A DNA stretch of 44,984 bases, from contig JAAFIA010000037.1 of assembly GCA_013298545.1 (NCBI GenBank), positions 1 to 44,984 of the forward strand. The letters are read 5' to 3'. Position 1 is the first letter of the stretch; the number at the start of each line of letters is the position of its first letter. Below are positions 2,183 to 40,215 of the stretch, in pieces. The notes under the pieces were generated by a model. That model was not told where the DNA came from and did no database searches. It worked only from the letters and a program-made list of their open reading frames with translations. The position numbers and the translations under genes were made by a program. Source of the stretch: Bacteroidota bacterium (GTDB taxonomy: Bacteria > Bacteroidota > Bacteroidia > Palsa-965).

Positions 2183-3928
2183 TTACCGAAATTCATAATT
2201 TACGCCTGGCGTAATTTGCGTGAGCAATGTTGCGGGCGCATCTGTTGCTACGGCACGCCCTTCTTGCACCGGCGCAATAGGCGATTTGAGCTTCAAGTAT
2301 CCTTCAATGGCTTGATGTGTGGTAACACCCGTATCGCGGCGATTTTTCACATCTTTTATCCGACACATCACCGAATCGGGATCGCCTTCGCGCTCGCATG
2401 AAACAATGGTGTATGTTTTTTGCAAATCAATTTTTTTCTTGCCAACCTTTACCGATTCTAAACGACTGCCCATGGGCTTGTTGATGGCGAAACGAATATT
2501 CATACCTTGAAAACGAATGAGCCAACCCCCAAAACGGCGCGATGGATCCGAGGCAAAAACATTTTCCAATTCGCGCTCCAACCAATTCCAGATTTGTTGT
2601 CCGGTTACTTCACCTTTTACAAGTGGCGAATCGAGCGGAAAAATGCTCCATAAATAATCGCGGGTGATTTGTGCTTCGCCTGTTGTTGGATCGGGCACGA
2701 GTGGCGGACCAAAACGAAATCCGTTTGAGAGTGCGATATCTGGTTTGCAAGCCAACATCACCGCATCCGTAATCATGTTATCGGTTGGTGTTTCGATGAT
2801 GTAGTAACGCATCAAGGGTGTTTTGGAACGACCAATAACCGTGTTGAGATTTTCGGCAAATGGTTTATAGGTTTTCTGAATTTCGGCAAGCGTTTCTGCA
2901 TCGGGGCGGTATTTCTCTGGATCAACATCGAGCAATGCGTAATTGGTGTCAACCACTTTTCCGTTCTCTATCGTTAAATCGAGTTTGCTGATGAACGATG
3001 CAAATGCGCCTGGCTCGGTAACTTTCGCATATTTCCCAACCATAGGCTCGCGCACACGTTCGTGTGTATCGGCACCTAAAATAAAATCGATTCCTTCCGC
3101 ATGCGGTTGATTGGCGAGGTTTAATTGTTGCGCAAACCCCATGTGTGTAAGCGCGAAAACGAGTGTACATTGCTCGCGATCGCGAAGCAAACGAACATAT
3201 TTTTGCATGTTTTCAACCGGATCAGAAAATTTAATTCCCTTGCTATAATCCGGCGCTTGACGTATTGGTGTAAGTGGGTCGTTGTAGCCAACAAAACCAA
3301 TTTTCACACCACCAATTTGAAAAATCTGATACGGCGGAAAAAGTAAATCGCCACTTTGTTCGTCAAACATATTGCCACAGACTTTTGGTGCGAGGTAGCC
3401 GCCCATATCTTTCAGCAACATTTGTTTTCCATAAGCGACTTCCCAATTTCCGGGCAACATCAAATCGTATTGCAACCGGTTGACGAGTGGAATGATGGCC
3501 TGACCGAGTGTAAGCGAAGCAATCGCGCTTCCTTGAAAACAATCGCCGCCATCAAGCAATAACGTATTTCCTGGATTTTGTTTTTTGAGTGCATTGACCA
3601 TCGTGTGTAAACTGGCCAATCCGCCACGTTGACGAAAAACCGGTTTTCCGTTTTCCATGAAAAATTCATCGTGCGGGAGCAATTGTGCGTGCATATCGCC
3701 TGTATGCAAAAGCGTGATCGTTGTTGCTTTTCCCGATTTTACGGTTTGCGTATTTCGCATTTCTTCGGCATTTCCCGAATTGGTTTGGCTGAATGCAGGC
3801 AATGGACTTAGACCAACAGCGGCAGCACCGAGTCCAAGCGTCTTTAAAAATTTTCGACGATCGGAAGCCGATGCTTCGTGTGCGCCGCAAGTGCAGCCGG
3901 GCAAGTGTTCTATTTTCTGATCAGGCAT
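2183..3928 (-). CDS. SoxB-like thiosulfohydrolase / 5'-nucleotidase-family metallohydrolase, Tat-exported
   Basis: A 581-aa protein starting at the ATG at 3928, one base after the stop of the cytochrome gene; the longer open frame up to 4105 would overlap that gene and is not used. A twin-arginine signal (DRRKFLKTLG, Arg24-Arg25) follows a short Cys-containing leader (GCTCGAHEA). The metallophosphoesterase motifs are HTGDMH (Asp78, His80), LLLDGGD (residues 123-129), GNWE (161-163), THMG (His262) and ADTHE (His289). Trp in GNWE instead of His, and the following VAYG, match SoxB (GHWEFTYG) rather than classic 5'-nucleotidases. The C-terminal half has NGFRFG, as in the nucleotidase/SoxB C-domain. 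SoxB hydrolyses sulfate from a SoxY-bound thiosulfate adduct in the periplasm. No SoxYZ, SoxAX or SoxCD is visible here, so the substrate carrier is open. It could be a nucleotidase. Confidence 0.75.
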   Translation of the reverse strand: MPDQKIEHLPGCTCGAHEASASDRRKFLKTLGLGAAAVGLSPLPAFSQTNSGNAEEMRNTQTVKSGKATTITLLHTGDMHAQLLPHDEFFMENGKPVFRQRGGLASLHTMVNALKKQNPGNTLLLDGGDCFQGSAIASLTLGQAIIPLVNRLQYDLMLPGNWEVAYGKQMLLKDMGGYLAPKVCGNMFDEQSGDLLFPPYQIFQIGGVKIGFVGYNDPLTPIRQAPDYSKGIKFSDPVENMQKYVRLLRDREQCTLVFALTHMGFAQQLNLANQPHAEGIDFILGADTHERVREPMVGKYAKVTEPGAFASFISKLDLTIENGKVVDTNYALLDVDPEKYRPDAETLAEIQKTYKPFAENLNTVIGRSKTPLMRYYIIETPTDNMITDAVMLACKPDIALSNGFRFGPPLVPDPTTGEAQITRDYLWSIFPLDSPLVKGEVTGQQIWNWLERELENVFASDPSRRFGGWLIRFQGMNIRFAINKPMGSRLESVKVGKKKIDLQKTYTIVSCEREGDPDSVMCRIKDVKNRRDTGVTTHQAIEGYLKLKSPIAPVQEGRAVATDAPATLLTQITPGVNYEFR

Positions 3929-3929
3929 G

Positions 3930-4973
3930 TTATTTTTTGTGTGCTTTATCGATTGGTCCAAATGGCCCATACTTATGTTGGAGCATAGGAAATGAATCGC
4001 TGAATGGTCCAAACGGATGATCGGATGGCTTTTTGCTGATGTCGGGCCAGTCTGCCGAAATATCTTTATTGGGGTGTGGTTGTGAATTGACGAATGCTGC
4101 AACATCCCAACATGCTTCGTCAGACAATTGTGGCGTATCCCAATTCACACCAAAAGGCATATTTGCTTTTACATATCCGGCAAAGCGCGAAAGGCGATAC
4201 AGCCCTGCACCAATGTTATAACTGTGATCGCCCCAAAGAGGCGGATACTGATACGTTGCGGCATCTGCTTTTTTTCCTTCGCCGTTATTGCCGTGGCAGG
4301 AAGCACATTTCGCGGCATAAATTATTTTTCCTTTTTGTGGGTCGGCAGGACGGCTCATTTTTTTGAGGACATAAATTCCAGAACCTGCGGGCGATTTTCC
4401 TTTGGGCACTTCGCTTCCAACCCAAGTGATGTATGCCACAAGCGCAAGCATTTCGCGATTGAGGCTGTCTAGTTTTGTTCCGTTGAGGCTGCGTTCAATG
4501 CAATCGTTAACGCGTTTGGTAATTGATTCCATTGCTCCCGAGCGGGCACGAAATTTTGGATAGGTTGCAGCAACAGCAACATAATTATTTCCCCAAGGTT
4601 TCGTTCCTGCGTCGAGGTGGCAGTTTTGGCAATTCATGCCGTTTGTTATTTTAGCAACAACGCCTTCTGGTCCGAGGTAATACGCAGTATTGGCAACCAA
4701 CTTACGGCCATAACGAATGCGCTCGCCCAATTCGTTGTGTGGAATTTTGGAGGTGTCGGGCGCATGCCAAAACGTATCGACTGGAGGTTTCGCAATGTCG
4801 GCTACTTGCTTTTTTTTGCCTGTTGGATTTGTTGTTGCTGAAAACAAATCGGGTGGACCAACAAGGAGCAACCATAACAGCAGGACAATCACTCCAAGCA
4901 GAAATGCAACGAGCAAAGTCAATGCACGAATGGATTTGACGAGTGATTGAAATGAATTATCGTTTGTGTTCAT
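3930..4973 (-). CDS. TsdA-like dihaem cytochrome c (thiosulfate dehydrogenase family)
   Basis: A 347-aa protein with an N-terminal membrane anchor (residues about 17-38) and two c-type haem motifs, CQNCH and CASCH. The first domain contains YPKFRARSG and VNDCIERSLNG, and the second PPLWG, SYNIGAG, NMPFG and AAFVNSQP; all are typical of the TsdA family. The Cys of NDCIERS lies 39 residues after the first haem His, which fits the unusual Cys axial ligand known for TsdA, and the Met of NMPFG lies 45 residues after the second haem His, which fits the Met ligand of haem 2. TsdA oxidises thiosulfate to tetrathionate or the reverse. It is the first gene of a two-gene operon with the SoxB-like gene (1-nt gap). 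The membrane anchor differs from soluble TsdA and suggests electron delivery at the inner membrane. Confidence 0.8.
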   Translation of the reverse strand: MNTNDNSFQSLVKSIRALTLLVAFLLGVIVLLLWLLLVGPPDLFSATTNPTGKKKQVADIAKPPVDTFWHAPDTSKIPHNELGERIRYGRKLVANTAYYLGPEGVVAKITNGMNCQNCHLDAGTKPWGNNYVAVAATYPKFRARSGAMESITKRVNDCIERSLNGTKLDSLNREMLALVAYITWVGSEVPKGKSPAGSGIYVLKKMSRPADPQKGKIIYAAKCASCHGNNGEGKKADAATYQYPPLWGDHSYNIGAGLYRLSRFAGYVKANMPFGVNWDTPQLSDEACWDVAAFVNSQPHPNKDISADWPDISKKPSDHPFGPFSDSFPMLQHKYGPFGPIDKAHKK

Positions 4974-5067
4974 TTTTCTGGCAGATGCAAGATATTATTA
5001 AAACACGAAACAGAATAAAAATAAATAGCTATACGAAGTTGAGCAATGTGTTGCGTACCTTTAAGCC

Positions 5068-5229
5068 ATGCGAAAACTCACCAAAATTGGCATCAATGGA
5101 TTAATTTCCGTTGCTGCTATTTCTCTACTGATATGGATTTTGGGATATTCCCCAATTTATACTGCACCTTTGGCTTTACCTTTTTTACTGCTTTTACTCA
5201 TTTCATTTTCGAATAACCCACGAAATTAA
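5068..5229 (+). CDS. Small (53 aa) membrane protein
   Basis: An ATG at 5068 opens a 53-codon frame ending TAA at 5227-5229, one base before the ATG of the following outer-membrane protein gene. The product begins MRKLTKIGINGL and has two hydrophobic stretches (residues about 11-27 and 33-47) separated by GYSPIY, ending SFSNNPRN. The positive N-terminus, double transmembrane pattern and one-base spacing to the next gene support a real short gene, probably cotranscribed with it. I recognise no family. It is divergent from the TsdA/SoxB pair, with about 95 bases between the start codons. Confidence 0.55.
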   Translation: MRKLTKIGINGLISVAAISLLIWILGYSPIYTAPLALPFLLLLLISFSNNPRN

Positions 5230-5230
5230 C

Positions 5231-6085
5231 ATGCGTTTTAACCTTATTCTTCTCGCTCTGCTTGCTGCACTTTATGCCCAAGCGCAGCAAGATTCTTTAG
5301 CCATTGCTGGATTTATCAAGAAAAGTAAACAGGTGCGCGGTGCGTTCTATTTCGGATGGGGTTATAATAAAGACTACTATTCGAAATCAGATATTCATGT
5401 ACACGGCGATACAAAAAAAGGGCCTGTTGACTTTATGCTGTATGACATGGAAGCAAAAGACCGTACAGGCTTCCGCGATATTTTGCGTACAGATTTAACG
5501 ATTCCACAATATGGGTATCGGATTGGTTGGTGGATGCCCAATGGTGTGTGGGGCGTAGAACTAAATTTCGATCATCCGAAATACATCGTTACAGATTATC
5601 AGACGGTTCATCTTAAAGGAAGCATTTATGGAAAAGAATATGATGTAGATACCTTAATCGATCCGGTTGATTTCATGCACCTGGAACATACTGACGGCGC
5701 AAACTTTTTGGTGGCGAATATTATGTACCGCAAAAAAATATTCAGTAGGCCAAACTTGCGTGTTTTTGGCATGGCGAAAGTTGGCGCAGGCATTGTTATT
5801 CCGCGCTCAAACGTGCATTTATTTGGTGATCATTTCGATCATAATTTTCATGTTGCAGGGCAAGTTGCCTCCATTGAAACAGGCTTGCACATCGATCTAT
5901 TTCGTCATTTCTACATAGAACCAACAGTAAAAGGAGCTTTTGCCAATTATCCAAATGTTTTAGCGGTTGACGATGCGTTGATCAGCCATCATTTCTGGGC
6001 TGGAATGATCGAGTTACATGTAGGCATTCAGTTTCCGATGGGCCGCGCGAAACCTGAATTTTGGGATTTCTTGCGTAAAAACTAG
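5231..6085 (+). CDS. Outer-membrane beta-barrel protein of unknown function
   Basis: 284 aa with a signal peptide (MRFNLILLALLAALYAQAQ, residues 1-19). The mature part is rich in alternating aromatic/polar strands, for example YGYRIGWWMPNGVWGVEL, LRVFGMAKVGAGI and HFYIEPTVKGAFANY, and ends with a probable final strand and the tail FWDFLRKN. This is typical of small Bacteroidota outer-membrane barrels. It follows the 53-aa membrane protein by one base and is probably in the same transcript. No catalytic motif is recognised. Confidence 0.7.
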   Translation: MRFNLILLALLAALYAQAQQDSLAIAGFIKKSKQVRGAFYFGWGYNKDYYSKSDIHVHGDTKKGPVDFMLYDMEAKDRTGFRDILRTDLTIPQYGYRIGWWMPNGVWGVELNFDHPKYIVTDYQTVHLKGSIYGKEYDVDTLIDPVDFMHLEHTDGANFLVANIMYRKKIFSRPNLRVFGMAKVGAGIVIPRSNVHLFGDHFDHNFHVAGQVASIETGLHIDLFRHFYIEPTVKGAFANYPNVLAVDDALISHHFWAGMIELHVGIQFPMGRAKPEFWDFLRKN

Positions 6086-6169
6086 GCGCAATTCCGGTTT
6101 TTATCACACAATTCAGGGCCGATTTCGTCGTTTAAGAGGAAACTCCTACCTTGTTCTAAATCTTTGCCC

Positions 6170-6496
6170 ATGAAAATTATTGCAATCGACCGGATTCTCC
6201 CAACTGCATCGGAAGAAAAAATTCGCGGTGTGGTTATTCGCGAAGCCTTACATATCTGGACGTTATACACCAAAGATGTCTTGCGCGAGCTTTATTTCCG
6301 TAAAGATCGCCCCGGCGTGGTAATGGTTTTGGAATGCGAATCGGCTGCTGAGGCCAAAAAAATTCTGAATACATTTCCACTCGTTAAGTCGGGTGTTATT
6401 GAGTTTGATGTGATTCCGGTAGGCCATTTTGTTCCGTTTGGCACCTTAATCGATAAAGATTTGCTGGAACAATACCACGACAACCAACCTTTTTAA
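6170..6496 (+). CDS. Small ferredoxin-fold protein, muconolactone isomerase-like/YciI-like
   Basis: 108 aa from the ATG at 6170; a TTG two codons upstream (6164) is also in frame but the ATG gives the natural start MKIIAIDRILP. The sequence has the beta-alpha-beta-beta-alpha-beta rhythm of the dimeric alpha-beta barrel/muconolactone isomerase-like families: GVVMVLECESAAEAKKILNT followed by a hydrophobic strand IEFDVIPVG and the closing PFGTLI. No catalytic residues can be assigned. It is a single gene closed by the hairpin at 6522-6550. The family-level call is moderate; the function is unknown. Confidence 0.6.
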   Translation: MKIIAIDRILPTASEEKIRGVVIREALHIWTLYTKDVLRELYFRKDRPGVVMVLECESAAEAKKILNTFPLVKSGVIEFDVIPVGHFVPFGTLIDKDLLEQYHDNQPF

Positions 6497-6521
6497 TTTT
6501 GAACGCGTAAGAATTTTAACA

Positions 6522-6550
6522 AAAGAGGAATGGTTATTTCATTCCTCTTT
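6522..6550 (+). terminator. Intrinsic terminator after the isomerase-like gene
   Basis: Perfect 11-bp stem (AAAGAGGAATG / CATTCCTCTTT) around a 7-base loop, 25 bases after the stop at 6496. The T-rich 3' arm and following TTTCTT fit a terminator for the upstream gene. Confidence 0.6.
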
Positions 6551-6552
6551 CT

Positions 6553-6560
6553 TAGATTTG
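6553..6560 (+). promoter_or_regulatory. Candidate -7 box (TAGATTTG) for the first small T9SS gene
   Basis: Matches the Bacteroidota TAnnTTTG box, 35 bases before the ATG at 6596 and directly after the terminator hairpin. A good -33 TTG is not seen at the expected distance, so this is tentative. Confidence 0.35.
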
Positions 6561-6595
6561 TCGGTATTCAAAATAAAACACATAAAACCATCTCG

Positions 6596-7204
6596 ATGAA
6601 AGCAAAACTTTACATTCTATCTCTTATGGCTGGTCTTGGCTTTGCAGTTGCTGCGCAAGCACAATGTACCGCTACCATTAACTCACTCACCGTTGTGGGC
6701 GCAACAGTAACCGCTGTTGGTTCTGGAACTGGCGCACTCGGATTTCCGGTTCTTGGCTGGGATTGGGGTGATGCATCTTCTCCTTCTGTTGGTGCCAATG
6801 CTACGCATACGTATGCAACCAATGGTACTTATCAAATCTGCTTGACTTATTTTGATGCGTTGGATACAGCGAATTGCTTTACCTCAACATGTTCTTCAAT
6901 GACCATCAGCGCAGTTGGTGTATCGCAGTTAGCTGCTTTTGAAGCAAAGATGGCTATTTCTCCAAATCCTTTTGGAAACACAACCAATTTCAATTTATCG
7001 TTGAATCAGGCTTCTAAAGTTGAGATGGCTGTTTATGACATGACCGGAAAACAAGTGGCTATGGTGTATGAAGGCGAACTCAATGCTGGTCTTCACAACA
7101 TTGCTTGGACTCCTGAAAACCTTGCCGATGGCGTTTACTTCATCCAAGTAAAAGCTGGCGACAAAATGATTACGCGTAAAATTGTTCACACAACGAACAA
7201 CTAA
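6596..7204 (+). CDS. Secreted PKD-domain protein with type A T9SS sorting domain
   Basis: 202 aa from the ATG at 6596, chosen because it opens directly on a signal peptide (MKAKLYILSLMAGLGFAVAAQAQ); the frame open from 6530 adds a non-signal extension. Residues about 60-110 form a PKD-like domain (WDWGDASSPSV ... ATHTYATNGTYQICL). Residues about 125-202 form the C-terminal sorting domain: ISPNPFGN, VYDMTGKQV, LNAGLHNIAW, GVYFIQVKAGD and the basic ending TRKIVHTTNN. The type IX machinery should recognise this tail after Sec export, cleave it and attach or release the protein at the cell surface. The gene at 7397 is a close paralogue of the same length and layout. A strong terminator follows. 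Confidence 0.85.
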   Translation: MKAKLYILSLMAGLGFAVAAQAQCTATINSLTVVGATVTAVGSGTGALGFPVLGWDWGDASSPSVGANATHTYATNGTYQICLTYFDALDTANCFTSTCSSMTISAVGVSQLAAFEAKMAISPNPFGNTTNFNLSLNQASKVEMAVYDMTGKQVAMVYEGELNAGLHNIAWTPENLADGVYFIQVKAGDKMITRKIVHTTNN

Positions 7205-7224
7205 GGCTTCGCTCAACATCCCCG

Positions 7225-7255
7225 AAAACGGCTGCTCCATTCGAGCAGCCGTTTT
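7225..7255 (+). terminator. Strong intrinsic terminator
   Basis: 13-bp perfect stem (AAAACGGCTGCTC / GAGCAGCCGTTTT) with a CATTC loop and a T tract, 20 bases after the stop at 7204. Confidence 0.85.
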
Positions 7256-7396
7256 TATTTTGTGTAAAAAGAGAAAGCTGAATTGTATCAAAAAAAAAAT
7301 CAAACGTAAGATTCTAACGACATCGCTTTGTGCCTTGGTGTTAGTTGTTGGATGTTTGTGGTGTTCAAATTAATTATTCATTTAAAAACAACAACC

Positions 7397-7978
7397 ATGA
7401 AACTCAAAAACTACATTGCCGTAGCAGTATTGTCTGCTGTTACCGCATTCACAGCCCAAGCACAATGCTCGGTTAGCATTACATCCATTACATATTCTGG
7501 AGTGTCTATCACGGCTACGATGAACCCAAGTGGAATTGGCACGTATGGCTGGGATTGGGGCGATAGTAATTATAGTTTTGGACTAACAGCAACGCATACT
7601 TATTCTGCAAACGGGACTTATCTTGTTTGTGCATCGTTCATCGATTCGCTTCAGTGCATCGCAACTTCATGCGATACGGTTCCTTTCTTTTTAGGTGTAA
7701 ATGATCAACAACAAGTTCAAGTTGGTTTAAATACGTCTCCCAATCCATTTACAAATGAAGCACAGTTTAACATTTCGCTTTCTCAGGCTTCCGATGCGGA
7801 AGTTCTTGTCTATGATTTACAAGGCCGCGAAGTTGCCGAAATTTACAAGGGCGAATTGAATGCTGGTCTTCATAAAATGACTTGGACGCCAGAAAATTTG
7901 TCGGCTGGAATTTATATGGTTCAAATCAAAACGGGCGGACAAGTGATTACGCGTAAAATTGTGCATACTACGAATTAG
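7397..7978 (+). CDS. Secreted PKD-domain protein with type A T9SS sorting domain (paralogue of the preceding gene)
   Basis: 193 aa from the ATG at 7397, which begins the signal peptide MKLKNYIAVAVLSAVTAFTA; the upstream in-frame start at 7328 adds 23 unlikely residues. The middle has a PKD-like core (YGWDWGDSNYSF ... THTYSANGTYLVCA). The C-terminal sorting domain has TSPNPFTNEAQF, VYDLQGREVAEIY, LNAGLHKMTWTPENLSAGIY and ends TRKIVHTTN, nearly the same as the tail of the 6596 product. The N-terminal thirds are less alike, so this is an old tandem duplication with the sorting tail conserved. Partner or substrate is unknown. It has its own terminator at 8001-8030. Confidence 0.85.
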   Translation: MKLKNYIAVAVLSAVTAFTAQAQCSVSITSITYSGVSITATMNPSGIGTYGWDWGDSNYSFGLTATHTYSANGTYLVCASFIDSLQCIATSCDTVPFFLGVNDQQQVQVGLNTSPNPFTNEAQFNISLSQASDAEVLVYDLQGREVAEIYKGELNAGLHKMTWTPENLSAGIYMVQIKTGGQVITRKIVHTTN

Positions 7979-28803: not shown

Positions 28804-28968
28804 ATGAAACGTTTTTCAAGTTTTAACGAACTCAAGACAAGTGAATCAAAGAGCCTTGACCCCAAGGCTAACACGATTGCGCTTGAGCAGGAATTGAAAC
28901 AATTCATGGAAGTATTGAAGCAGGCTAAAAAATCAGCGGAATTAAAGACTTATGCTAAGTCAGAATGA
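28804..28968 (+). CDS. Small 54-aa charged protein, candidate antitoxin-like partner
   Basis: 54 codons from the ATG at 28804 (MKRFSSFNELKTSES...), ending TGA at 28966-28968. The last four bases are shared with the ATG of the nucleotidyltransferase gene (ATGA overlap). The sequence is mostly helical and charged (EQELKQFMEVLKQAKKSAEL). No family is recognised. The size, order and translational coupling to a nucleotidyltransferase-fold protein are as in toxin-antitoxin pairs of that type; that role is inferred from context only. Confidence 0.6.
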   Translation: MKRFSSFNELKTSESKSLDPKANTIALEQELKQFMEVLKQAKKSAELKTYAKSE

Positions 28969-29501
28969 ATGATTTAACGGAAAATTTTCTCGTTGGCACA
29001 CCATACTCATTTCAAGATGGCATTTTAAAAGTCTGTACAGCCTTAAATACTCATGGCGTAAATTATTTGATCATTGGTGGTACGGCGTTTGCAATTTATG
29101 GCCGACACAGAATGTCTATTGAGGCTAGCGGTAAAATAGCAACGAAACATGATTTTGACTTCTGGTACGCTCCTACTTATGAAAATTACTACAAGCTTCT
29201 AAAAGCGTTAGCTTCATTAGGTATTGATACATCTGAATGGTTAGAAGAGCAAATACCTAATCCGCGAAAATCTTTTTTTAGGCAGGAGTTTGATTCTTTT
29301 AAAGTAGATTTCTTACCAGAAGTTATCGGGCTAAATAATTTCGACAATTCTTTTGCTAACCGCAAGACTTTATTGATCGCTGATACCGCAATGCACTTTA
29401 TATCCAAAAGCGATTTAATAAAAAGCAAAGAAGCAAACAATCGAGCAAAAGATATTGATGATTTAAATGAACTAAAGAATTCTTCCTCTGACGAAAACTA
29501 G
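28965..29501 (+). CDS. Nucleotidyltransferase-fold protein (MNT/AbiEii-like), candidate toxin
   Basis: 178 aa. The pol-beta-like nucleotidyltransferase pattern is visible: IIGGTAFAIYGRHR (Gly38-Gly39), HDFDFW (Asp63, Asp65) and KVDFL (Asp115), the three acidic residues expected to bind metal. The C-terminal LIKSKEANNRAKDIDDLNEL matches the helix typical of AbiEii/MNT-like proteins. There is an extra SIEASGKIATK segment between the GG motif and the first acids. It may transfer a nucleotide to RNA or protein as in related toxins; substrate unknown. It is followed by a strong terminator. Confidence 0.7.
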   Translation: MNDLTENFLVGTPYSFQDGILKVCTALNTHGVNYLIIGGTAFAIYGRHRMSIEASGKIATKHDFDFWYAPTYENYYKLLKALASLGIDTSEWLEEQIPNPRKSFFRQEFDSFKVDFLPEVIGLNNFDNSFANRKTLLIADTAMHFISKSDLIKSKEANNRAKDIDDLNELKNSSSDEN

Positions 29502-32570: not shown

Positions 32571-32981
32571 TTATTTCGTTGTGTTTTGCGCTTTCATTTG
32601 GCGCAACCAGTTTAGAGCCTCTTGTTCGTCAGTAAACAAACGGGTTGGAATAATGGGGCGAAAGATGCGAACATAAGCATTAGCAATACCTCGAGCCACA
32701 CGCCCACCAATTAAAAGAGCAATAGCTGCTTGGTAGTTAGAATGGTCATTGTTGGAACTATACTTCATAACACTAGGCGAAATCTGGGAGATTGATATAT
32801 TTCTACCATCGAAGAGAATATATATTTTACGGTCTTTTATAAATTCTTTGGCCTTTTGATTAAATTCCATTGCCATTTCCAATGTAATCTCAAAATCTAC
32901 TTGAGCATCGGCAAATAATATATCTGGCTCAGGCTCGTAAACGGTAGCGAGTGAAGACTGAAAAAGTAAATTGGTTTTCAT
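32571..32981 (-). CDS. SpoIIAA/STAS-like small protein, paralogue 1 of 3
   Basis: 136 aa cytoplasmic protein. It shares with the two neighbours at 33059 and 33630 the pattern D-x-R-x-I (LFDGRNISI), VMKYSSNNDHSNYQAA, a hydrophobic strand ending RIFRP and the tail PTRLFTDEQEALNWL. The general form (a five-strand sheet with a C-terminal 'F...eA..WL' helix) matches SpoIIAA/STAS-like DUF7793 proteins. No phosphorylatable serine is obvious at the STAS position. The function is unknown. Confidence 0.65.
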   Translation of the reverse strand: MKTNLLFQSSLATVYEPEPDILFADAQVDFEITLEMAMEFNQKAKEFIKDRKIYILFDGRNISISQISPSVMKYSSNNDHSNYQAAIALLIGGRVARGIANAYVRIFRPIIPTRLFTDEQEALNWLRQMKAQNTTK

Positions 32982-33058
32982 TTTGAGGCTAAGTATCCAA
33001 CAATCAAGTGTAAAATTAACAGAAGAACTTCAACATTTGCGATTTATATCAGATTAAC

Positions 33059-33487
33059 TTACAAATTCATCTTTGCATTCATACTTCTGACCCATTCCAA
33101 TGCTTTTGTTTCTTCTGTAAAAACACGTGTAGGTACTTTGGGTCGAAAAACGCGGATGTAAAAAGAGCAAACTTGCATCATGAGTTTGCTATTGATAAGC
33201 ATGGCAAAACAAGTTTGGTATTTCGCATATTCATTGTCCGAGCTATAACGCATAACTTCATTCGGAATTCGGGTAATGGTAATATTTCTAGCATCGAACA
33301 AAACGCCTTTAATTGTTTCGCCCATTACTTTTAATGCGTGTTCGTTGTGTGCTTTGACAATAGCTATGGTGAGTTCAAAATCAATGGTAACGACGACGTG
33401 TAAAATATCTTGCTCTGGCTCATAAACATCGGCCATCTGCGATCTGAAGAGAAAATTGGAAATGGATGAATTGGTAGTGGGGGGCAT
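33059..33487 (-). CDS. SpoIIAA/STAS-like small protein, paralogue 2 of 3
   Basis: 142 aa from the ATG at 33487; a TTG five codons upstream is also in frame. Contains VLFDARNITI, VMRYSSDNEYAKYQT, FYIRVFRP and PTRVFTEETKALEWV, aligning along its length with paralogues 1 and 3 but diverged elsewhere. It lies 77 bases from paralogue 1 and 142 bases from paralogue 3. Confidence 0.65.
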   Translation of the reverse strand: MPPTTNSSISNFLFRSQMADVYEPEQDILHVVVTIDFELTIAIVKAHNEHALKVMGETIKGVLFDARNITITRIPNEVMRYSSDNEYAKYQTCFAMLINSKLMMQVCSFYIRVFRPKVPTRVFTEETKALEWVRSMNAKMNL

Positions 33488-33629
33488 GAGCGAACAATTC
33501 AACCGAATGGCATTGTTTTTAAAAACAACGTATTCGATTCGTGGGACGTATCAAAATTACGATAAAGAAATCTTTTCAACTATCGTTTTTTCAAAGATAT
33601 AATTATAATCTCGATTATTACACGCAAAA

Positions 33630-34046
33630 CTACTTGTTTTCGATGCCATCTATGTATGGTTGAAGCCATTTTGTGGCTTCGCTGGCATCGGTAAAAATGC
33701 GTGTTGGTGTTTTGGGTTTAAAAACACGCAAATAAAAATTGGCAATGAGCTTTTGTGCGAGTCCTCGAATTAAGATGGCATACGCATTCTGATATTGAAT
33801 AAATTCATTATCGGCTACATAACGCATAACATCTGCAGGGTAATAGGTAAGTTCGATGTGCCTCATATCCATGAGAATAACCACCACTTTTTTATCTAAG
33901 ACTTCGGCAATACGGACATAAGCATCCTTGACCAATTCCAATGAAATTTCTTTATTGGCGGTCAGATCAACACAGACTAACCGATGCTCAATGGTAATTT
34001 TTGCCAGATCGGTTTCAAATATTTGCGCTTGTGTTTCTGCGATCAT
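33630..34046 (-). CDS. SpoIIAA/STAS-like small protein, paralogue 3 of 3, coupled to UDP-xylose synthase
   Basis: 138 aa. Contains [34 protein letters not shown] and [15 protein letters not shown]. Its ATG (34046-34044) overlaps the stop of the UDP-xylose synthase gene (34045-34043) in an ATGA junction, so it is translated after that enzyme. The coupling points to a link with this sugar branch; paralogues 1 and 2 are further along the same strand. Confidence 0.65.
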
Positions 34047-36103: not shown

Positions 36104-37420
36104 TTATTCAGGAACAACAGTAGCGCGTCCGATGCTGGCGTAATAATAGCCTTGCTCGGCCATTTGTTCGAGGCTATACAAATTGCGTCCGTCGAAGATG
36201 GCCTTGTTTTTCATCGAAGCATTCATCTTATCGAAATCGGGTGTGCGGAACAAACTCCATTCGGTGCAAATGATGAGTGCGTCTGCTTGGTTCAAAATAT
36301 CATAAGCATTTAAGCCGTAATGAATTTTATTGCCGATGGTTTTGCTCACATTGTCCATCGCTTCGGGATCGTAGGCGTAAACGGTTGCTCCTGCATTGAC
36401 CAATTCGTCGATGATGTAGAGTGCAGGTGCTTCGCGGATGTCGTCGGTATCGGGTTTAAAGGCGAGACCCCAGATGGCGATTTTTTTACCGTGCAGGTCG
36501 TTTTTGAAATAGGCGTTTACTTTGGGAATGATGATTGTTTTTTGTTTTTCGTTGATGGTCATCACCGCATTCAAAATCTGCATTTCTTGATTGACTTCAG
36601 CAGCGGATTTTGCGAGTGCTTGAACATCTTTCGGGAAGCAACTTCCGCCATAGCCGATTCCGGGAAACAAAAAGCGTTTTCCAATGCGATCGTCAGAGCC
36701 AATACCGATGCGCACTTTATCAACATCAGCACCGACTTTTTCGCAGAGGTTGGCAATCTCGTTCATGAATGTAATTTTTGTAGCGAGAAATGCGTTTGCG
36801 GCGTATTTGGTCAACTCGGCAGATTTTTCGTCCATGAACAAAATTGGGTTTCCTTGGCGGACGAATGGTTTGTACAATTCTTCCATGAGCTTACGCGCTT
36901 TTTCTCCGCTGCATCCGATTACAACACGATCGGGTTTCATAAAATCATCCACAGCAAATCCTTCGCGCAAAAATTCGGGATTGGATACTACATCAAATTC
37001 TACTTGTGCATTTTTTGCAATGGCGGCATGTACTTTTTCGGCTGTGCCAACAGGAACAGTACTTTTATCCACGATAACTTTGTAATCGGTGATGAGTGTA
37101 CCGAGCTGCGCGGCAACGCCGAGTACGTACGAAAGATCGGCAGAGCCATCTTCGCCTGGAGGTGTAGGAAGAGCGAGGAAAATAATTTTCGCGTTGGCAA
37201 TGGCTTTGGCAAGATCGGTGGTAAAGCGTAGGCGACCTTGTTTGATGTTGCGTTCAAAAAGTACGTCGAGGTGTGGTTCGTAAATCGGGATGATTCCGTT
37301 TTTCATTTTCTCGACTTTGGCTGCGTCAATATCAACACAGGTTACATCGTTTCCGGTTTCTGCCAAACAGGTTCCGGTAACGAGACCAACATAACCTGTT
37401 CCTACAACTGCGATATTCAT
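36104..37420 (-). CDS. ugd: UDP-glucose 6-dehydrogenase
   Basis: 438 aa: VGTGYVGLVTGTCLAETG (NAD site), KSTVPVGTAEKV, NPEFLREGFAVDDF, GYGGSCFPKDVQA (catalytic Cys) and DDIREAPAL at the C-terminal domain. It oxidises UDP-glucose to UDP-glucuronate, feeding UDP-xylose synthase at 34043. It is 3 bases downstream of the ATPase-DUF4435 gene and in the same transcript. Confidence 0.96.
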   Translation of the reverse strand: MNIAVVGTGYVGLVTGTCLAETGNDVTCVDIDAAKVEKMKNGIIPIYEPHLDVLFERNIKQGRLRFTTDLAKAIANAKIIFLALPTPPGEDGSADLSYVLGVAAQLGTLITDYKVIVDKSTVPVGTAEKVHAAIAKNAQVEFDVVSNPEFLREGFAVDDFMKPDRVVIGCSGEKARKLMEELYKPFVRQGNPILFMDEKSAELTKYAANAFLATKITFMNEIANLCEKVGADVDKVRIGIGSDDRIGKRFLFPGIGYGGSCFPKDVQALAKSAAEVNQEMQILNAVMTINEKQKTIIIPKVNAYFKNDLHGKKIAIWGLAFKPDTDDIREAPALYIIDELVNAGATVYAYDPEAMDNVSKTIGNKIHYGLNAYDILNQADALIICTEWSLFRTPDFDKMNASMKNKAIFDGRNLYSLEQMAEQGYYYASIGRATVVPE

Positions 37421-37423
37421 AAT

Positions 37424-39061
37424 TTATTGAGTTAAAATGATTTTTTCGATTTGGGATTTGAACCAGTTAGTTTTTGCTAGTTCAATTGTTTGGATATTTT
37501 TCGGGCGGAATTCTCCACAGTATTTTTTCATGGAAAAAACCTTGTAATATGTCTCAAAATCATCGGACTTGAGCATTACGAGAATTGCAGAAGAATTTTC
37601 TTCAAATTCTTTACGGCGTTCTTGTTGCCCTTCTGCTTTGAAATAGGGGTAACTATTTCGGCTTCGATGAAGACCTAGAGCAATATCTGCAATAAGTCTA
37701 TTTTTTTCTTGCGTAATTTGTTTTTCGTACTGCTGCTTGTCAAACGTTTCACCTTTTTGTGAAAAATAAGCTACTATATTTTCGGGATGATAGAGGTAAT
37801 TTTCAAAGCAGTAATAGTTGAGCAGTAAAAACCGTTTTTTCTCAGCCATAATTTCCTCACGTTCATCATCTGTAAGGAAATCACGATCAGCAAGTCCTTC
37901 ATAAGGTTCTGTGTTTGTTCGGAAGTAAACATCGTTGCGATCAACAGCATCGACAAAAACAACATCTTGGAGCAGCATTGTATTGTAGATTTTAGCATTT
38001 GCTCGTTCTGCAAAAACAATGCGTTTATCGCTCAAGAGTGCGGCAAGGGATGCTGATGGGATTGCGATTTCAAAAACTTCGTAGCCTGCTTTTAATGCGG
38101 GTGTAATAAGTTGCGGTTTATCGAAATCTAAATTATCGAGATCAATAATTGCGGCATGATTAGACTCATTTGCATATTCAATAAATCCAAGGGAATGACT
38201 TGCTGTCCATAGTTGGCAATTATCCGGAATCCAGTTTTCGACAACTTCTTTAAGAAGTTTCTTTTGCAAGGTTGTATTCAAATGAACATCAAGTTCATCG
38301 ATAAAATAAATGGTATTTTGATAGTTCTGCTGGCGAACAAAGAAGTTTAGCAAAATATTGAATACTTCTTTCTCCCCAGTACTTAACATATTATAATGAT
38401 ACTCAGATTCACCTTTCTTAAATCGGACATCAGCTCCTTCACCTCCTCCAGAAGGAATTAAAGAACTGAGTTGTAGCGAAATATGTTCTGTGTTCCCAAA
38501 GACTCTACTAATTGCTTCATTTAATGGCTTAAGAAATTGTAAACGAACTTCTCCCGATGTTTTTTCCGAATGGTCTTGATACGCTTGCAAAAGGCGGCGA
38601 GCAATTAGTTCTAAGTCATTGTACAATCGAAAATCACGAGCGGCGTAACTTGAAGGTCTGTCTAAATCACCACTTAGTGTTGCATTAATATCAGATCGTT
38701 GATTATATCTAAGAAAAGGAACTTGTCTTAAAGCAGACCTACCATAAAACAAGGTTTCATTACTAATTCCTTTAGTTCGAATACCGGAATAACCAAAATA
38801 GTCAATGCCACTTCCATCAGAAAAACTTACAAGTATTCTGTATTCTTCTTGATTCCTTTTAGTGAAATAACCTTGTGGCGGTTTAAATTCGATTTCTCCT
38901 TTGGGGTTAACTAATTCAAACGCATCAAACACCGAACTCTTTCCACTTCCATTCGCACCAATCAGCAAGACCAATTTTGGCGGTGTTTGCAGACTCGACA
39001 AATCTATTGTCAGGTCTGTAAATCGCTTAAAATTTTGAAGTTGTAGCTTGGAGATAAACAT
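37424..39061 (-). CDS. AAA15-type ATPase fused to a DUF4435/TOPRIM-like domain (candidate single-gene PARIS-type defence protein)
   Basis: 545 aa. N-terminal ABC/RecF-like ATPase: GANGSGKSS Walker A (35-43), LSTGEKE signature (226-232), IDELDVHL Walker B (254-261), ASH His-loop (287-289). The C-terminal part from about residue 345 looks like DUF4435/TOPRIM: IVFAERANAKIY (Glu352), VDAVDRNDVYF and GLADRDF (Asp392-x-Asp394), then YYCFENYLYHPENI. In PARIS anti-phage systems an AAA15 ATPase (AriA) works with a DUF4435 nuclease (AriB), and merged single-gene forms are known. Here the acidic residue usual after the first Glu is Asn355, so the catalytic set may be altered. An OLD-family nuclease is the alternative. 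The gene is 11 bases after the DegT-family aminotransferase stop and 3 bases before ugd, inside a sugar-precursor transcript. Confidence 0.75.
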   Translation of the reverse strand: MFISKLQLQNFKRFTDLTIDLSSLQTPPKLVLLIGANGSGKSSVFDAFELVNPKGEIEFKPPQGYFTKRNQEEYRILVSFSDGSGIDYFGYSGIRTKGISNETLFYGRSALRQVPFLRYNQRSDINATLSGDLDRPSSYAARDFRLYNDLELIARRLLQAYQDHSEKTSGEVRLQFLKPLNEAISRVFGNTEHISLQLSSLIPSGGGEGADVRFKKGESEYHYNMLSTGEKEVFNILLNFFVRQQNYQNTIYFIDELDVHLNTTLQKKLLKEVVENWIPDNCQLWTASHSLGFIEYANESNHAAIIDLDNLDFDKPQLITPALKAGYEVFEIAIPSASLAALLSDKRIVFAERANAKIYNTMLLQDVVFVDAVDRNDVYFRTNTEPYEGLADRDFLTDDEREEIMAEKKRFLLLNYYCFENYLYHPENIVAYFSQKGETFDKQQYEKQITQEKNRLIADIALGLHRSRNSYPYFKAEGQQERRKEFEENSSAILVMLKSDDFETYYKVFSMKKYCGEFRPKNIQTIELAKTNWFKSQIEKIILTQ

Positions 39062-39072
39062 GTTCTGTTATT

Positions 39073-40215
39073 TTACTGATTCACAAATTCTAAAACAGCA
39101 TCAGTGATGTATTTCAAGGTTTCTTCGTTTAATTCGCTGTGCATGGGTAACGAAACAACACAGGCACATAATTTTTCTGTAACCGGAAATGCGCCGGATA
39201 CATAGCGTTCGCTTTGATAAGCTTTCTGCATGTGCAGAGGAACGGGGTAATACACCATAGACGGAATTCCTTTATCGGCAAGGTATTTGCGTAATGCGTC
39301 GCGATCTACGTTTTGTAGTTGGAGGGTGTATTGGTGAAAAACGTGCGTGGTATTTTTTGCGCGGGCTGGTGTTTTAATTTTTGGATTTCCAGCGAGTGCG
39401 TTATCGTAATAATTAGCGGCGGCATTTCGTGCGGCGGCGTATTCGTCGAGATGACGTAATTTGATGCGCAGAATAGCGGCTTGAATGCTATCGAGGCGTG
39501 AGTTAACACCAATGCTGTCGTGATAATATTGAATGCGTTGGCCGTGGTTGGCGATCATTTGCATTTTAGCGGCAAGCTCATCGTCGTTGGTGTACATGGC
39601 ACCGCCATCGCCGTAGCAACCGAGATTTTTTGATGGGAAGAAAGAGGTGCAACCGATGTGTCCAATTGTTCCTGCTTTTTGTTTTTTACCGTCGGCACGA
39701 GTATAGTCTGCACCAATGGCTTGTGCAACATCTTCGATGATGAAGAGGTTGTGTTTTTGCGCAAGTTGCATGAGGCGTTCCATATCGGCGCATTGACCGA
39801 AGAGGTGAACGGGAACGATGGCTTTGGTATTGGGGGTGATGGCTTTTTCAATAGCTTCGATGTTGATGTCGAAAGTATCGGGATAAACATCAACGAGTAC
39901 GGGAGTAAGTCCGAGCAGGGCAATGACTTCGGCAGTAGCGGCATAAGTAAAGCTTGCTGTAATGACTTCGTCGCCTTGTTTGAGGCCGAGTGCCATCATG
40001 GCAATTTGCAGGGCATCGGTTCCGTTTGCGCAGGGAATGACATGCTTTACGCCTAAATAGGTTTCGAGTTCAGCTTTAAACGATTTGACTTCTGGCCCAT
40101 TGATAAAAGCAGACGAACGAATGACGCCGAGTACTGCAGCATCAATTTCTGATTGAATTTTTTCGTACTGGCCGAAGAGATCGACCATGTGAATTTTCTT
40201 TGTTACTGACTCCAT
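39073..40215 (-). CDS. DegT/DnrJ/EryC1 aminotransferase, WbpE-like
   Basis: 380 aa PLP aminotransferase: NGTDALQIAMMALG, ITASFTYAATAEVI, VPVHLFGQCADM, EDVAQAIGADY and SFFPSKNLGCYGDGG with the PLP lysine. The last is the WbpE/WlbC signature. It converts the 3-keto UDP-sugar to the 3-amino sugar between the WbpB and WbpD steps. It is the first gene of the block with the ATPase-DUF4435 gene and ugd, about 7 kb from wbpB/wbpD-like genes. Confidence 0.93.
   Translation of the reverse strand: MESVTKKIHMVDLFGQYEKIQSEIDAAVLGVIRSSAFINGPEVKSFKAELETYLGVKHVIPCANGTDALQIAMMALGLKQGDEVITASFTYAATAEVIALLGLTPVLVDVYPDTFDINIEAIEKAITPNTKAIVPVHLFGQCADMERLMQLAQKHNLFIIEDVAQAIGADYTRADGKKQKAGTIGHIGCTSFFPSKNLGCYGDGGAMYTNDDELAAKMQMIANHGQRIQYYHDSIGVNSRLDSIQAAILRIKLRHLDEYAAARNAAANYYDNALAGNPKIKTPARAKNTTHVFHQYTLQLQNVDRDALRKYLADKGIPSMVYYPVPLHMQKAYQSERYVSGAFPVTEKLCACVVSLPMHSELNEETLKYITDAVLEFVNQ

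Follow-up and report, generated by a model that had tools for sequence, protein, structure and literature searches.

Analysis of a 44,984-nucleotide stretch of a Bacteroidota genome (the window; contig JAAFIA010000037.1) revealed a gene, P0001, whose product probably represents an anti-phage system of a PARIS-like kind that stands alone, consists of one gene, and was acquired horizontally; in it, an ATPase would act as sensor and a fused nuclease would stop translation. PARIS consists of AriA and AriB, and fused single-gene forms are known (Rousset et al. 2022, PMC9122126; PMC12409363). A defence role of P0001 is favoured by AriB as the top structural match of its C-terminal module, by catalytic acids of the AriB family, by AriAB as the best of 5027 models, by the foreign character of the gene, and by defence-type neighbourhoods, both of some relatives (the methyltransferase in Poribacteria and the SLFN_AlbA_2/SNF2 cluster at locus L122) and of related modules (the PDC-M60 locus and a GmrSD neighbour). 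What stands out is the sharing of the module among several proteins and the confirmation of empty insertion sites, more than the single gene. The following features were assigned in the window:

37424..39061, minus strand: P0001, single-chain ABC ATPase and AriB-like Toprim protein (545 aa)
39073..40215, minus strand: upstream neighbour, DegT/DnrJ/EryC1/StrS sugar aminotransferase (PF01041, E 3.9e-120)
36104..37420, minus strand: downstream neighbour, UDP-glucose 6-dehydrogenase, ugd (PF03721/PF00984/PF03720)
38072..39061, minus strand: ABC/SMC-type ATPase, residues 1-330 (AAA_15 and AAA_21 over cut-off; structural matches with Z 17-21)
38936..38959, minus strand: Walker A GANGSGKS, residues 35-42 (sequence and alignment)
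38372..38386, minus strand: ABC signature LSTGE, residues 226-230 (sequence and alignment)
38294..38314, minus strand: Walker B TIYFIDE, residues 250-256 (D255 and E256 invariant)
38195..38197, minus strand: H-loop His289 (invariant in the alignment of relatives)
37427..38050, minus strand: AriB-like Toprim module, residues 338-545 (model with pLDDT 94.3; AriB Z 9.5/8.6; hhalign E 8e-6)
38006..38008, minus strand: Glu352, predicted catalytic, matching the first invariant Glu of the family (invariant in all rows)
37880..37888, minus strand: DRD, residues 392-394, predicted metal-binding DxD (D392 and D394 invariant)
37799..37804, minus strand: Glu420-Asn421 of FENYLYHP, the third of the conserved elements (E420 invariant; EN shared with the AriB-family set)

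The open reading frame starts with ATG and is packed, as originally predicted, 11 nt after the aminotransferase gene and 3 nt before ugd, both distances being confirmed from the sequence. Elsewhere in the sugar-gene cluster, three successive, mutually similar ORFs of 136-147 aa were located (32571-34046, minus strand), of which the one scanned (33630-34046) matched DUF7793. Furthermore, one plus-strand ORF (28965-29501) lies among the minus-strand sugar genes and revealed a weak likeness to the nucleotidyltransferase families DUF6036/DUF2204.

In regard to the N-terminal half, every motif of the predicted ABC-type ATPase (Walker A, LSTGE, Walker B, and H-loop) is present, and both Pfam domains scored over their cut-offs, AAA_15 with 56.2 bits (cut-off 32.1) and AAA_21 with 51.8 bits (cut-off 27). 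Structural matches to residues 1-330 were PtuA, SMC, and Rad50 heads, so that by structure the modelled ATPase half lies close to the heads of PtuA and SMC, and no specific likeness to AriA could be demonstrated; AriA was absent among the best 50 structural matches listed for the whole P0001 model, which leaves room for it further down. Foldseek matches of the whole protein included OLD 6p74. Since the ATPase half took up the matches in searches with the whole model, the C-terminal module was folded alone, together with 16 relatives, in AlphaFold.

Residues 338-545 alone revealed neither a Pfam match nor a match in a profile search against PDB sequences. The isolated model reached a pLDDT of 94.3 and a pTM of 0.90, with E352 at the end of strand 1, DRD after strand 3, and strand 4 before the FENYL motif, which in this predicted structure is the order of strands and motifs expected of a Toprim. 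Its best structural match among 1000 solved chains was AriB of PARIS (8ux9_A, Z 9.5 over 177 residues, 4.6 A), with a second AriB structure at Z 8.6 (8v46_D), followed at lower scores by C-terminal regions of OLD (about 5, top 5.1) and by Gabija and retron Eco8 (about 3.7). Foldseek likewise placed AriB first, with a weak E-value (0.013). The module and AriB are 15% identical over these 177 residues, and with an identity this low the substrate of the module could have changed. In the AriB-family set, which was retrieved with the PADLOC AriB model, E, DxD, and E are invariant and N is nearly so. The same pattern E...DxD...EN is kept in P0001, where E352, D392, D394, and E420 are invariant across the aligned relatives. 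Profile-profile comparison (hhalign) of the module with the AriB-family set gave an E of 8e-6 over 87 columns (probability 84%), and 6 of 17 aligned modules matched the PADLOC AriB model itself (best 2.4e-8). Based on the predicted fold, the catalytic pattern, and these AriB-model and profile-profile matches, we take the module as a divergent AriB-type Toprim. Thus, the TOPRIM-like region of the original prediction was borne out, with Glu352 and the DRD pair where it had placed them. Altered chemistry, which had been suspected from Asn355, was rejected, as this column is polymorphic, with Asp in 11 and Asn in 7 of 18 aligned proteins. The odd residue of P0001 is instead Arg353, which is N or G in all other aligned members.

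The proposal that P0001 is a merged PARIS system held in part. Its make-up of an ABC ATPase with an AriB-like Toprim stood: AAA_15 and AAA_21, of which PARIS calls for either, are both detected, the predicted model of the module has the AriB-type Toprim fold, and the AriB-family acids (E, DxD, E) correspond to E352, D392, D394, and E420. DUF4435 (PF14491, cut-off 27 bits), on the other hand, was unmatched in P0001 and throughout its genome, and just 3 of 18 aligned relatives matched it (best 2.4e-6). For fused forms, Rousset et al. (PMC9122126) used scores of 80 for AAA_15+DUF4435 and 20 for AAA_21+DUF4435. If the PADLOC and published models are the same, P0001 stays below the first with PDLC02981 (71.3 bits vs 80); with PDLC02982 it reached 24.6 bits vs 20, only over profile positions 207-287 in the ATPase part, where other ATPases of the genome reach 26.6 and 22.8. 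PADLOC AriAB was the top model for the whole protein among 5027 defence models, and the scores on PARIS models come mostly from the ATPase half. Since the DUF4435 profile is unmatched and the scores of the merged models do not decide, we describe P0001 as PARIS-like and do not file it as a member of PARIS.

No full-length relative of P0001 was found in any of the 11 other genomes of the family; one of them (G010) harbors the module only, on a different protein. As had been proposed, the aminotransferase-ugd junction was compared among these genomes, and in 10 of the 10 that hold both neighbours the two genes are adjacent without P0001, separated from stop to start by 5-28 nt in the seven genomes read exactly and by <100 nt according to match coordinates in the other three. 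The P0001 gene has a GC content of 0.365 and a GC3 of 0.28, compared with a GC3 of 0.43-0.48 in its sugar-pathway neighbours; one more distant outer-membrane gene is also low (0.32). Based on the ten empty junctions and the difference in GC3, the gene is an insertion and foreign to this operon.

Relatives of 35-45% identity over the full length were found at at least 13 other loci with invariant motifs, and P0001 is therefore a real protein, far beyond chance. The full-length relatives belong to Bacteroidota and, according to record titles, to single contigs of Acidobacteria, Planctomycetes, Verrucomicrobia, and one gammaproteobacterium; some are on small contigs from MAGs and may have been binned wrongly. 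The distribution is sporadic, as among 395 genomes of the class only 6 gave any match. The relatives occupy different sites, further ones existing besides those given here, with some neighbour genes named by eye: between a MauE/DoxX-like gene and an ABC permease gene (L002, G122, G417), between mfd and an acyl-CoA ligase gene (G320), between dihydroorotase and protoporphyrinogen-oxidase-like genes (L004), between a sugar dehydrogenase and a fabG-like gene (L007), and between hydroxyproline-epimerase-like and D-amino-acid-oxidase-like genes (L029). Among 14 other genomes bearing the permease of the first site, 11 have the pair adjacent without the gene, two could not be assessed, and G417 has the gene. 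At the mfd site, the pair is adjacent without the gene in 18 of 24 other genomes (gap of about 15-118 nt; one of the 18 extrapolated from a partial match), the remaining six being unassessable or rearranged. Together with the sugar junction, the ABC form is thus verified as a clean single-gene insert at three different stop-start junctions in three operons. Tight embedding (upstream gap <=110 nt, downstream <=35 nt) was counted at 7 of 14 sites vs 31 of 122 background genes of comparable length (Fisher p = 0.056), with thresholds and a hand count of sites chosen post hoc, after the data had been seen. A preference for operons is therefore only suggestive, and we dropped the stronger claim. Inspection of the displayed flanking sequences by eye showed neither direct repeats nor a common boundary motif that would mark a transposon or target site. 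In a poorly resolved tree of 20 proteins, the rows nearest P0001 include the Acidobacteria and Planctomycetes contigs, which would be in line with horizontal transfer and is no proof of it.

Most relatives lie outside defence islands. The most defence-island-like setting seen was L122:179-8277, where a relative is clustered with an SMC-like ATPase, an SLFN_AlbA_2 protein, and an SNF2 helicase. In addition, distant poribacterial relatives of 25-27% identity (L017, L018, L019, and L026, ~3800-7551) lie directly downstream of a methyltransferase gene, by eye apparently a type III mod; in L019, both form one open frame of 1225 aa, perhaps by fusion or sequencing error. Broken or partial copies were found at L013, L070, and L071, the one in Arachidicoccus (L013:6034-7608) being a decayed copy that is fragmented into several frames and lies immediately upstream of the S10 ribosomal-protein operon. 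A plasmid search gave one match, covering the ATPase half only, on Zymomonas mobilis plasmid pZMOB01 (L072:6001-7599, 33% identical, near toxin-antitoxin genes). A viral scan with the module alone gave no match. Phage contig IMGVR_UViG_3300036781_000838, which also carries DNA ligase and DNA polymerase genes, encodes an ATPase half only (L031:7992-8951, 320 aa, 42% identical to P0001). This copy ends immediately before the nuclease module and has Asp in place of the Walker B Glu256 and Asn in place of His260. It may represent either a remnant or a decoy that poisons the oligomer of the host protein.

Related modules, 33-37% identical to that of P0001, were found at the C-terminus of several unrelated proteins. 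An LRR-Roc-COR GTPase protein ends in the module at L015:4252-6777, with Roc, COR-A, and COR-B all over cut-off, and by inspection the same holds for proteins at L016, L020 (4087-6615), and L021 (1604-2242). At the PDC-M60 candidate locus of Mucilaginibacter sp. OK268 (L023:1606-6618), a related AriB-like module makes up the C-terminal half of the second receiver protein. Proteins of ~920 aa at L022, L075, and L123 also end in it; the two that were scanned revealed no Pfam domain, and by eye the module is preceded by a PIN-like stretch and by a coiled coil. One of them (L075:3855-8380, 920 aa), from a genome of the window's own family, is directly followed by a GmrSD-type gene. A literature search covering few names found no paper that links response regulators to DUF4435, or that brings Toprim and Roco together in the context of anti-phage defence. 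New here are the related module on LRR-Roc-COR, PDC-M60 response-regulator, and ~920-aa proteins and the ABC form as a clean single-gene insert. More tentatively, we suggest that this AriB-like module, which Pfam does not recognise, may be an interchangeable effector cassette on at least four sensors (the ABC ATPase, the LRR-Roc-COR GTPase, the PDC-M60 receiver domain, and the ~920-aa protein beside GmrSD), its ABC version possibly spreading as a promoter-borrowing single gene into core operons and acting unreleased.

In PARIS, an AriA hexamer sequesters AriB and a phage anti-restriction protein, e.g., Ocr, is the trigger; AriB is a two-metal Toprim RNase that cleaves host tRNA and is inactivated by E26A (PMC9122126, PMC12409363, PMC11455837). 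The outcome in PARIS is abortive infection. In P0001, the N-terminal ABC ATPase would serve as sensor and assembly platform, and the attached AriB-like module would be a metal-dependent nuclease kept inactive at rest. A phage product would shift the conformation of the ATPase and thereby switch on the module, which would most likely act on host tRNA and so stop translation; that RNA is the substrate at all has, in our judgement, perhaps an even chance. As the covalent link bars release without cleavage of the chain, activation would have to be conformational or by pairing of modules, i.e., by rearrangement or Toprim pairing inside the oligomer. Our analysis thus shows the domains, the predicted AriB-like fold, the conserved catalytic acids, the insertion, and the sporadic occurrence of the gene, whereas its role in defence, its trigger, its nuclease activity and substrate, and activation without release are inferred.

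Some of these observations could also be expected of an OLD- or Gabija-like defence protein, which would nick or degrade phage DNA under the control of ATP and would not stop translation. ABC ATPase and Toprim share one chain in OLD and GajA too, OLD C-terminal regions (Z about 5) are the next structural matches of the module, and OLD is found among the Foldseek matches of the whole protein. However, AriB scores far higher structurally (9.5 vs 5.1 for OLD and 3.7 for GajA), and the EN motif is conserved as in the AriB-family set; we consider this reading unlikely. Less probable still is a stress RNase or regulator without a role in defence, in which the ATPase senses an internal signal, the module cuts RNA, and the gene is retained through the expression drive of the neighbouring operon. 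Its frequent embedding in housekeeping operons and the related modules on Roc-COR GTPase and response-regulator proteins, which are signalling scaffolds, would suit such a role, but a gene with any match in 6 of 395 class genomes, absent from relatives in the genus and found in broken and partial copies (L013, L070, L071), does not, nor does the fact that one module chassis is part of a candidate defence system (PDC-M60).

Scarcely credible is a gene for the biosynthesis or regulation of surface sugars, as a functional member of the aminotransferase-ugd operon. The spacing of 11 and 3 nt packs P0001 into this operon, and the original prediction had linked it with surface-sugar synthesis, but the operon is intact without the gene in ten relatives. 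The sugar context is incidental, given that the relatives of P0001 are found in operons of other kinds (MauE/DoxX-permease, mfd-acyl-CoA ligase, dihydroorotase, hydroxyproline). A functional tie to sugar synthesis was thus rejected on the basis of the empty sites and the different insertion sites.

If the PARIS-like reading is true, nucleases of the PARIS type are commoner than current models show, since the module has no Pfam match here and mostly none in relatives. A module shared by ABC, Roc-COR GTPase, and two-component chassis would also provide a testable effector role for bacterial Roc-COR proteins, which have Roc and COR domains in common with human LRRK2. Finally, with the fused form of P0001 it could be tested cleanly whether nucleases of the AriB type have to be released from their sensor. 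This question was left open in PMC12409363, whose authors prefer the view that AriA activates AriB to one of simple release.

Among known systems, the ATPase half is matched best in structure by PtuA of Septu and retrons Ec78/Ec83 (Z about 20), but PtuA is paired with an HNH nuclease (PtuB) in place of the Toprim module. P0001 reached 46 bits with the PtuA model NF041760 (cut-off 500), and its neighbours, the sugar aminotransferase and ugd genes, include no HNH gene. PDC-M60, a PADLOC candidate, is represented at L023 by a 1176-aa PDC-M60A match, a PDC-M60B receiver protein, and the module-bearing receiver protein, of which the PDC-M60C model matches the receiver half only; its sensor is receiver/M60A-based and not ABC. 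OLD family nucleases and Gabija GajA share with P0001 the order of ABC ATPase and Toprim on one chain, but are the weaker structural matches of its module (Z about 5 and 3.7). With PARIS, P0001 shares an ABC ATPase and an AriB-type Toprim nuclease with the pattern E...DxD...EN, the predicted fold of its module matching 8ux9 and 8v46. It differs from PARIS in a nuclease module too divergent for PF14491 and in its length of 545 aa, with a short ATPase half that is not specifically AriA-like. Furthermore, in the loci examined it is carried singly in core operons, with no two-gene form seen, and its type of module is also found on non-ABC chassis.
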